The notes under the pieces are model-generated. The model did not search any database and was not told the DNA's origin. It worked only from the letters and a program-made list of their open reading frames with translations. Shown piece by piece: positions 55,599 to 57,568 of a DNA stretch of 64,000 bases. The DNA is taken from contig NZ_BMCR01000003.1 in assembly GCF_014635285.1 (NCBI RefSeq), positions 372,001 through 436,000 of the forward strand, written 5' to 3'. This stretch comes from Stappia taiwanensis. GTDB taxonomy: Bacteria > Pseudomonadota > Alphaproteobacteria > Rhizobiales > Stappiaceae. Made by a program: the position numbers and the translations under genes. Each line of letters opens with the position of its first letter. Within the stretch, counting starts at the first letter, position 1.

Positions 55599-56033
55599 CT
55601 ACGGCGCCAGCCGTTCGAGCGAGCGGGCCGGCTGGGTGCCTTTCAGCAGATCCTCCAGCGTCCAGCGGTCGAGGCTGTCCAGAAACGCCTCCGCCGCCTC
55701 GGCCATCGCCCCTTTGAGGGCGCAGAGCGGCAGGAAGGAGCAGGCGCAGGGCCCCTCGCGCAGGCAGGCGACCACCGCCAGATCCTGCTCCATCAGCCGC
55801 ACCACCGCACCGGCACGGATCTCCGACGGCGGGCGCAAGAGGCGCACGCCGCCGCCGCGCCCGCGGGTGGTCTCCACCAGACCGGCCTGCGCCAGCCGGG
55901 CAACCAGCTTCATCACATGGGACTTCGCCAGCCCGAGGGTGCGGCTGAGCGTGTCGATGGTCTGCGGCTCATCGACCTGCCCCAGCCGCATCAGGATACG
56001 CAAGGCGAAATCGCTTGCCTGGTTCAGTCGCAT
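55599..56033 (-). CDS. nsrR: Rrf2-family regulator, NsrR-like
   Basis: 144 aa. The Rrf2 winged helix has MRLNQASDFALRILMRLGQV, LAKSHVMKLVARLAQAGLVE and TRGRGGGVRLLRPPSEIRAG. Cys residues ACLREGPCACSFLPLCALKG (C-x5-C-x-C-x5-C) match the NsrR Fe-S ligand region, with one extra Cys. NsrR senses nitric oxide through its cluster and derepresses detoxification genes. It is divergent from a truncated hemoglobin, a typical target, and a long dyad spans the shared promoter. Confidence 0.82.
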   Translation of the reverse strand: MRLNQASDFALRILMRLGQVDEPQTIDTLSRTLGLAKSHVMKLVARLAQAGLVETTRGRGGGVRLLRPPSEIRAGAVVRLMEQDLAVVACLREGPCACSFLPLCALKGAMAEAAEAFLDSLDRWTLEDLLKGTQPARSLERLAP

Positions 56034-56046
56034 GGGACCCTCAAAA

Positions 56047-56112
56047 CATTCATTTCATATGTTGCTTTTACCGCGCGAGCATGGCAAATAAAAGATGCGC
56101 ATGAAATGAATG
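56047..56112. promoter_or_regulatory. 12-bp inverted repeat in the nsrR/hemoglobin control region
   Basis: CATTCATTTCAT (56047-56058) and ATGAAATGAATG (56101-56112) are perfect reverse complements, 42 bases apart. The left copy sits 14 bp from the nsrR start and the right copy 31 bp from the hemoglobin start, giving each promoter one copy. NsrR sites are AT-rich half-sites of similar length, so these are probably its operators. Inference from position and symmetry. Confidence 0.65.
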
Positions 56113-56142: not shown

Positions 56143-56628
56143 ATGACCGGCACGGGCGAAAGGGACGACGCGGAACTTCGGGTGGTCTCGGCACAGATGC
56201 GCCGGGCGCCGGCCCATGCGGATATCGACGCGGAAAAGATCGACCGGTTGGTCGAGGAGTTCTACGGGCGCATCCGCCGCCATTCCCGTCTGGGGCCGAT
56301 TTTCGAGACGCGCCTTGCCGGGCGCTGGCCGGAGCATCTGGCGATCATGAAGCGGTTCTGGTCGTCGGTGCTGCTGAAGACCGGCAGCTACAAGGGCCAG
56401 CCGGTGCCGGTGCACCAGAAGCTGTCGGAGGTTGTTTCCGAGGATTTCGAGCTGTGGCTTGGCGAATTCCGTGAGGTCTGCCGGGAGATCTTCTCACCGG
56501 GCGCGGCCCGGGCGGTGATCGAGGCGGGCGAGCGGATCGCCCAGAGCCTGTGGTTCGCCCGCTTCGGCTTTGCCGGGTCGGAACCGCCGCAGGGGCTGAC
56601 GCAAACGCAAAAAAAGGAGACCGTGTGA
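56143..56628 (+). CDS. Group III truncated hemoglobin
   Basis: 161 aa, typical of group III trHb. ADIDAEKIDRLVEEFYGRIR opens the domain and ARLGPIF-type RLGPIFETRLAGRWPEHLAI then MKRFWSSVLLKTGSYKGQPV contains the family's W-PEHL and FW-SS patterns; the likely proximal His is in VHQKL and a Trp lies in SLWFARFGF. Group III trHbs bind oxygen and NO. ATG at 56143 is preferred (AGGGTGACG upstream). It is divergent from nsrR, which suggests NO-inducible expression, and its stop overlaps the next small gene. Confidence 0.88.
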   Translation: MTGTGERDDAELRVVSAQMRRAPAHADIDAEKIDRLVEEFYGRIRRHSRLGPIFETRLAGRWPEHLAIMKRFWSSVLLKTGSYKGQPVPVHQKLSEVVSEDFELWLGEFREVCREIFSPGAARAVIEAGERIAQSLWFARFGFAGSEPPQGLTQTQKKETV

Positions 56629-56846
56629 TGCTGGAAGCTGTCGTGCTTGTTGCGGAAGTCGGCGCGTTTGCGTGGCTGGTGCTGTTCTCCGTGCTGCTTG
56701 TCTCCATGGCCGCCGATAGCAAATGGCGGCCCGCGCCCCGGCTCGACCGGATCGGCCGGTCGCTGGTCGGCAATGCCCGAGCGGCCCTGACTGTCGGCGT
56801 GGTTGCGCTCGCCGCGCTCGCCGCCCATGACTTCGCCCTGTTCTGA
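56628..56846 (+). CDS. Small two-helix membrane protein (72 aa)
   Basis: 72 aa with two hydrophobic helices (VAEVGAFAWLVLFSVLLVSM and ALTVGVVALAALAAHDFAL) and a short basic loop between. AAAAAGGAGACC precedes the ATG, which overlaps the hemoglobin stop (TGATG), so translation is coupled. I do not recognise a family. Position in an NsrR-linked operon suggests a role near NO stress or a respiratory membrane complex. Confidence 0.7.
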   Translation: MLEAVVLVAEVGAFAWLVLFSVLLVSMAADSKWRPAPRLDRIGRSLVGNARAALTVGVVALAALAAHDFALF

Positions 56847-56859
56847 AGGAGGTGGTGTG

Positions 56860-56973
56860 ATGAAACGGCTCTTCTCGCCGCGCCTGGCCCATTGGCTCCC
56901 GGCCCTTTTGATCTGGGTGGCGGCGCCGATGCCGCTGTGGATCATGCTGGCGATGATCTGGATCTACGAATAG
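56860..56973 (+). CDS. 37-aa single-helix membrane microprotein
   Basis: 37 residues: MKRLFSPRLAHWLPALLI then WVAAPMPLWIMLAMIWIYE. It is nearly all one hydrophobic, Trp-rich helix with a basic N-terminus, the look of a bacterial membrane microprotein that modifies a larger complex. AAGGAGG lies 8 bases ahead of the ATG, a near-perfect ribosome site, and the gene starts 13 bp after the 72-aa gene. No known microprotein (CydX, KdpF and the like) clearly matches. Confidence 0.7.
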   Translation: MKRLFSPRLAHWLPALLIWVAAPMPLWIMLAMIWIYE

Positions 56974-56981
56974 CGCCTTTA

Positions 56982-56993
56982 GGGGGGGGGGGG
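56982..56993. repeat. Run of 12 G
   Basis: An uninterrupted G12 tract starts 9 bp after the microprotein stop codon. Homopolymers of this length are prone to slippage and to sequencing error. It lies outside any gene, so a length change would act on the 3' end of the operon only. Confidence 0.9.
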
Positions 56994-57000
56994 CGTCTGG

Positions 57001-57053
57001 CCGCATGGGGCGCCGGGGTGGTGAGGCAAAGCTTGCGTCGACACCCCATGCGG
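57001..57053 (+). terminator. Long-loop inverted repeat after the microprotein gene
   Basis: CCGCATGGGG (57001-57010) and CCCCATGCGG (57044-57053) form a perfect 10-bp stem with a 33-base loop; TCTTTTCTG follows a few bases later. It is probably the terminator of the hemoglobin operon. It also directly follows the G12 run. Confidence 0.55.
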
Positions 57054-57151: not shown

Positions 57152-57568
57152 GTGACCGACCAGACCGACCAGACCGAGACCGAAGCGCCCTCGGGTGAGC
57201 TGACCCTGCGCACCATGGCCATGCCGGCCGACACCAATGCGGCGGGCGATATCTTCGGCGGCTGGGTGTTGTCGCAGATGGATCTGGCGGGCGGTATCGC
57301 CGCCGGACAGCGCGCGCTCGGCCGGGTGGTGACCATCTCCGTCGACCGGATGACCTTCATCCGCCCGGTGCAGGTCGGCGATGTGCTCTGCGTCTATTGC
57401 TCGATCCCGACTGTCGGCCGCACCTCGATGAAGGTGGCGATAGAGGCCTGGGCCCTGCGCCACCGCCACGGCGGACGGGAAAAGGTCACCGACGCCACCT
57501 TCACCTTCGTCGCCGTCGATGACACCGGCCGCCCCCGCCCGGTCCCCCCGCTCGACGCCGAGGGGTGA
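57152..57568 (+). CDS. Acyl-CoA thioesterase, YciA/BFIT-type hotdog protein
   Basis: 138 aa hotdog-fold protein. LTLRTMAMPADTNAAGDIFG then GWVLSQMDLAGGIAAGQRAL is the YciA/acyl-CoA hydrolase signature with the catalytic Asp (GDIFGGWVLSQMD); VVTISVDRMTFIRPVQVGDV follows. It hydrolyses acyl-CoA in the cytoplasm. The start is GTG at 57152, with weak ribosome site. A Pro-rich C-terminal tail ends the protein. The AT-rich island begins directly after. Confidence 0.92.
   Translation: MTDQTDQTETEAPSGELTLRTMAMPADTNAAGDIFGGWVLSQMDLAGGIAAGQRALGRVVTISVDRMTFIRPVQVGDVLCVYCSIPTVGRTSMKVAIEAWALRHRHGGREKVTDATFTFVAVDDTGRPRPVPPLDAEG

Follow-up and report, generated by a model that had tools for sequence, protein, structure and literature searches.

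An Rrf2-linked pair of predicted membrane microproteins with a group III truncated hemoglobin as frequent partner in Stappiaceae

Introduction

For group III truncated hemoglobins (trHbs), neither the physiological role nor the electron donor is settled, to our knowledge. One relative of the globin considered here is Ctb of Campylobacter jejuni, likewise a group III trHb and the source of its best solved match (2ig3). According to PMC3820574, Ctb shows NO-linked regulation in its own host via NssR; the Ctb regulator is of the Crp-Fnr type, whereas the one described here belongs to the Rrf2 family. The same text reports an NsrR-linked truncated hemoglobin with a partner gene in Legionella, where glbN and a ferredoxin reductase gene form a bicistronic operon. 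Its partner is thus a reductase, while here the partners are membrane microproteins. Class 3 truncated hemoglobins are present in rhizobia (PMC4648194), and the truncated hemoglobin of Helicobacter pullorum is described as induced by reactive nitrogen species, with an NO reaction much slower than that of the single-domain hemoglobin (PMC5577044).

The NsrR-controlled operons of NO detoxification (hmp, hcp-hcr, dnrN/ytfE, nnrS), as presented in PMC1274295, share with our locus an Rrf2-type regulator, a target palindrome of the type gATGyAT-N5-ATrCATc and a globin output. That 2005 report gives no NsrR ortholog in alphaproteobacteria, except in R. capsulatus E1F1. Our locus differs from these operons in that the globin is a group III trHb and the constant output consists of two unnamed membrane microproteins.

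In genome annotation, membrane microproteins are readily overlooked. Small respiratory subunits of the CydX / CcoM type have one or two helices and roughly 30-75 aa. The two proteins described here, P2 and P3, resemble them in helix number and size range, but have no credible match in Pfam, NCBIfam or the PDB, and no oxidase gene was noticed by eye beside their genes.

We analysed a stretch of 64,000 nucleotides from Stappia taiwanensis (contig NZ_BMCR01000003.1, positions 372,001 to 436,000; hereafter the window). The initial annotation knew of no described system with the composition reported below, and we likewise found no account of such an operon in open-licence full-text literature, nor in Pfam or NCBIfam. 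We propose that it is an NO-responsive operon in which an NsrR-like switch would control a P2-P3 membrane microcomplex as core output, with the globin as partner, so that respiration would be protected from NO. We put the probability of this reading at roughly 45%.

Results

Organisation of the locus

The window's genome comprises 4.4 Mb in 20 contigs. On the plus strand, a trHb gene (P0001, 161 aa; 56143..56628) is followed by the genes for P2 (56628..56846), a 72-aa predicted membrane microprotein with two helices, and P3 (56860..56973), a 37-aa predicted single-helix microprotein with the motif ~LP-x-LLIW-x3-P-x-P-L-[WY]. The trHb stop and the P2 start share one base in TGATG, the A of TGA being the A of ATG, and 13 bases separate P2 from P3; AAGGAG lies 5' of P2 and AAGGAGG 5' of P3. 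A trHb translationally coupled to a 72-aa protein and followed by a 37-aa one, each small frame with its own ribosome site, was what the initial annotation had described, and its coordinates proved exact. An Rrf2-family regulator gene, NsrR/RirA-like by its matches (P0004, 144 aa; 55599..56033, minus strand), is divergent from the globin operon.

On the 3' side of P3, an inverted repeat with 15-nt arms, 87% complementary and followed by TCGCGTCTTTTC (57001..57053, plus strand), could serve as operon terminator, judging by its sequence. A run of twelve G is found soon after the P3 stop (56982-56993), and an acyl-CoA thioesterase-like gene, named by eye, lies 3' of the cassette (57152-57568). 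Thioesterase-like frames are also present 3' of trHb in several relatives without P2-P3, and the cassette may therefore sit within an older trHb-thioesterase neighbourhood.

P2 and P3 are conserved genes

In the largest sets of close relatives, pooled dN/dS was 0.14 for P2 (22 sequences, 231 pairs) and 0.17 for P3 (23 sequences, 253 pairs), most of the change falling at third codon positions. Most starts of either gene are ATG with a GGAG-like stretch just 5'; these starts were chosen by us, and the 164-base P2-P3 gap at one locus (L122) probably reflects a wrong start. Val6 and Glu10, the latter in helix 1, are invariant over 28 members of P2, Ala9 and Gly57 being nearly so; over 26 members of P3 the invariant residues are P23 and P25, with P14, W19 and L26 nearly so. 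Relatives outside the family share 22-42% (P2) and 35-50% (P3) amino-acid identity.

On the grounds of this purifying selection and conservation, we conclude that P2 and P3 are genuine conserved genes and represent two unnamed protein families. The earlier claim of two real small membrane-type proteins is thus upheld, since the pair occurs in 53 of the 87 Stappiaceae genomes and a membrane location is predicted for both. That the frames are very short and match no database family would also suit chance ORFs, or conservation of a non-coding sequence for some other reason. However, the low dN/dS values, the conserved start regions and the distant relatives led us to reject this explanation, to which we give next to no credence.

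With regard to topology, lysine and arginine average 4.79 in the P2 loop vs 0-0.04 in the other P2 segments, and the charge of P3 is located at its N end. By the positive-inside rule, the P2 loop and the P3 N end would face the cytoplasm and both P2 ends would lie outside. An AlphaFold2 model of P2, built on a two-sequence alignment and of modest confidence (mean pLDDT 77.6), predicts a helix pair at residues 2-33 and 37-71. The P2 and P3 alignments contain no conserved His or Cys, so that a redox role of their own is not evident.

The globin belongs to group III

The window's trHb has the Campylobacter group III trHb 2ig3 as its best solved relative in a PDB sequence comparison (E 1.8e-16, residues 28-136); the general Pfam trHb model PF01152 matched nothing in the window's genome, including this globin. 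Columns Y41, F54, H65, H91 and W105, which we take to be Tyr B10, Phe CD1, His E7, His F8 and Trp G8, do not vary in any of the 49 cassette globins. Its homology to 2ig3 places the window's globin in group III, and it should be a functional heme protein. The globin of Stappia indica, the only named relative returned by the genome-contig search, is 95% identical to it.

Among globins without P2-P3, 11 of 51 carry Tyr in place of His at the proximal-His column. In genomes of genus g6 (L112-L117, L119, L128-L131), another trHb-like frame, divergent, lies near the first, and the globins with Tyr may be these additional frames. Outside the family, G713 has a second trHb placed tail to tail with another Rrf2 gene (L151:1339-2455).

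The P2-P3 pair tracks the regulator gene more closely than the globin

A trHb match was found in 82 of the 87 family genomes, and 81 of these 82 were read at the trHb locus, the weak match in G028 being left out. The resulting 96 trHb genes, a count that leaves out some extra copies (for example that of G021 on contig C7) and duplicate loci (L046, L063-L068), comprise 46 with Rrf2, P2 and P3, seven with Rrf2 only and 43 with none of them. A lack of conservation beside the trHb genes of relatives had been set beforehand as a refuting condition, and the outcome does not refute the initial reading: both small proteins are found at 46 of the 96 trHb genes, neither at 50 and one alone at 0, and the order trHb-P2-P3 is kept at 46 of the 81 loci. 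An Rrf2 gene lies within 1.2 kb of 46/46 trHb genes with P2-P3 vs 7/50 without (Fisher p 2.8e-20, a value overstated since the rows are related).

The pair is also found without an adjacent trHb in nine genomes, seven of genus g6 with an Rrf2 gene near (L032-L038) plus G108 and G343; it stands beside Rrf2 in eight of the nine. In the regulator tree, pair-less loci are nested among pair loci at three places, namely a well-supported clade of four (L097, L100, L101, L104), L121 and, without such support, L009, and we read them as joint losses of P2 and P3.

Outside the family, a P2 profile built on family members only confirmed G108, G275 and G343 in a class sample of 385 genomes, the other 13 matches being partial. 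The corresponding P3 profile confirmed G275, G558, G713 and G511 in an order sample of 297, with seven other weak non-family matches. The second protein lies beside the first in all six confirmed genomes, and this adjacency, recovered with the family-only profiles (A1, A2), constitutes the independent evidence for pairing. A further P3 profile (A4), run on the 385 genomes, already held rows from G108, G275 and G343, which makes refinding them circular; it returned no further full-length match there, with partial ones in G132 and G127. In one genome, G855, a 43-residue frame contains the P3 motif, and the locus lacks P2. In a phylum sample of 398 genomes we found no credible P3, or pair, beyond alphaproteobacteria.

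All six non-family genomes with the pair possess a trHb relative, placed within the cassette in G275, G558, G713 and G511 and elsewhere in the genome in G108 and G343. This association would fit a simpler role for P2 and P3 as a mere membrane anchor or receptor, keeping the globin at the cytoplasmic membrane near an electron donor. By the chosen starts, 41 of 50 cassettes have overlapping trHb and P2 frames, the basic P2 loop is predicted to be cytoplasmic, and other globins have been reported at membranes (PMC3820574). The nine genomes with the pair and no adjacent trHb speak against such a role, as do 14 unlinked g6 trHb genes that lack an NsrR-type site (see below), and we consider it unlikely. 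Given these same two observations, we find no support for the initial suggestion, as worded, that the three proteins act as one set: P2-P3 is tied more tightly to the Rrf2 gene than to the globin, and trHb is a frequent but optional partner. The NO-responsive operon that we favour has P2-P3 at its core.

The regulator resembles NsrR

The window's regulator matches the Pfam Rrf2 family with 111.1 bits. On the NCBIfam models it reaches 92.0 bits for RirA (cut-off 193) and 91.3 bits for NsrR (cut-off 182), both below threshold, and its best solved relative is NsrR (5n07, E 7.3e-19). Its cysteines, placed towards the C terminus as expected of NsrR for Fe-S cluster ligands, are spaced X5, X1, X5 (C-X5-C-X-C-X5-C). 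The C-X5-C element is found in 65 of 66 regulators (63 from loci and three paralogs), the commonest spacing being X7, X5 (42 of 66). The NsrR link of the initial annotation therefore holds in part: an NsrR-like Rrf2 regulator does adjoin the operon, but it scores 91.3 bits vs a cut-off of 182, with RirA equal at 92.0. From its sequence, we regard this divergent regulator as NsrR-like, not formally NsrR.

The equal scores raise the possibility that the regulator is RirA-like and that the module answers iron or Fe-S shortage instead of NO. Two cassette regulators do score clearly higher on RirA than on NsrR (L085, 110.7 vs 97.3 bits; L032, 110.6 vs 93.8). On the other hand, a distinct RirA-like gene is found in the window's genome (L140; 190.7 bits, cut-off 193), the best solved relative is NsrR, and the sites described below match the published NsrR palindrome, all of which make a response to iron or Fe-S shortage quite improbable in our view. 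As for the NO-operon reading itself, it is weakened by the regulator tree, where the pair-adjacent regulators do not fall into a single clean clade and some of them sit on long branches.

The window's genome also contains another NsrR-like Rrf2 gene (L141; G000:C5, near 227349-229059), divergent from nnrS and matching the NsrR model with 119.5 bits (cut-off 182). At another family locus (L042:3392-7205, G083), trHb is divergent from Rrf2, and after it come a gene similar to 5-formyl-THF cyclo-ligase, then nnrS and then an nnrU-like gene (names assigned by eye, except nnrS). We set aside the idea that NnrS replaces P2-P3 in G083, whose regulator groups with the NnrS-linked one and not with that of the cassette.

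Operator-like sites lie upstream of most regulator genes

Between the regulator and the globin, the window contains an NsrR-type palindrome, GATGCGCATGAAATGAATG (56094..56112), a degenerate version of the AAAGATGCATYTNAAATGAATGTT of relatives. On its own it scores 10/14 against the consensus (p 0.17 in shuffles), and it sits where many relatives have 12/14 sites. In aligned upstream regions, many relatives show the same palindrome immediately 5' of the globin gene, along with a second element close to the regulator. This second element reads AAAACATTCATTTCATATGTTG in the window (56043..56064) and, aligned by eye, AAACATTCATYTNAKATGTTG in many relatives; it is probably the regulator-side operator.

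We scored sites as matches out of 14 to the consensus gATGyAT-N5-ATrCATc (PMC1274295) and compared them with dinucleotide shuffles. Over 63 Rrf2 upstream regions (56 with the pair, seven without; loci L001 and L003 of the near relative Stappia indica were left out, and the stretch scored for L081 is P3 coding sequence and not promoter), the best match averaged 11.65/14 vs 8.73 in the shuffles; 44 of the 63 reached p<=0.01 and 19 missed it. As controls we chose two groups from the 43 trHb genes without Rrf2 and pair, leaving out two further G021 copies. The best matches of 15 such genes were 8-10, with 0/15 at p<=0.05, and the 14 unlinked g6 trHb genes likewise gave 0/14 at p<=0.05.

The window's own weak match and the 19 regions that missed p<=0.01 count against the NO-operon reading, as do the nine loci with the pair and no adjacent trHb, where the stretch of up to 150 bases 5' of P2 reached p<=0.05 in only three (L032, L034, L082). 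L033 and L081 scored 10/14, and L035-L038 were at background; in some of these loci palindromes lie further upstream. In G343, the trHb gene shares a contig with P2-P3, at a distance of about 75 kb, and carries an 11/14 site (p 0.03), which could keep the separated trHb and P2-P3 within one regulon. The best site at the unlinked trHb locus of G108 is 9/14.

Candidate respiratory partners

We found no credible relative of P2 or P3 in Pfam, NCBIfam or PDB sequences, with single sequences or alignments. The best matches were weak: DUF6346 (E 0.0075, in 2 of 15 P2 members) and, among solved small subunits, 6lum_E (E 0.98). CydX-type and other known small respiratory subunits gave no curated-family or solved-subunit match, and a plasmid search with a g6-type P2 gave no match.

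P2 and P3 might nonetheless work independently of the globin, as CydX-like accessory subunits of a membrane complex in respiration or NO handling (bd or heme-copper oxidase, NO reductase or NnrS), their co-transcription with trHb reflecting shared regulation only. Their size, predicted topology and pairing suit small subunits, the pair stands beside the regulator without trHb in g6 genomes, and a second NsrR-like gene adjoins nnrS in the window's genome. We are doubtful of this explanation, since it lacks a sequence match to any solved small subunit, no oxidase gene was noticed among the listed ORFs around the pair (by eye, without annotation) and nnrS occurs in 66 of the 87 family genomes, being absent from several with the pair (e.g., G010, G011, G035, G038, G039). 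Given that cydA is universal (87/87) and nnrS is found in 66/87, co-occurrence cannot single out a respiratory partner.

Discussion

We favour the reading of the locus as an NO-responsive operon with P2-P3 as its core output. The regulator would be a repressor of the Rrf2 family, NsrR-like and, by homology, with an Fe-S cluster; attack of NO on this cluster would free the operon. P2 and P3, probably co-dependent, would then form one microcomplex of three membrane helices, as expected from their being gained and lost together.

The group III globin would be a cytoplasmic NO/O2-binding partner, carried on the same message in most pair-bearing genomes and coupled in translation. Beyond this point we can only guess. 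The microcomplex may attach to a terminal oxidase or a comparable complex in the manner of a small accessory subunit, and the globin, where co-encoded, may dock at it and so concentrate NO/O2 chemistry there. The likely job of the operon would be to guard the respiratory membrane against NO.

Tentatively, and with only a modest chance of being right, the idea can be extended: P2-P3 may be the first of a new class of NO-induced, three-helix membrane microcomplexes which fit onto a respiratory enzyme and recruit trHb where it is co-encoded, so that an NO-sensing switch would alter the make-up of the respiratory chain.

The P2-P3 pair, usually placed beside an NO-type switch gene, suggests that the bacterial NO response has a small membrane component not described so far, and it may represent a novel type of small respiratory subunit. 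Where the pair stands without an adjacent globin, the parts played by the globin and by the microproteins can be tested separately. An operon with paired microproteins under a candidate NO switch would also offer a concrete place to seek the partner of trHb.
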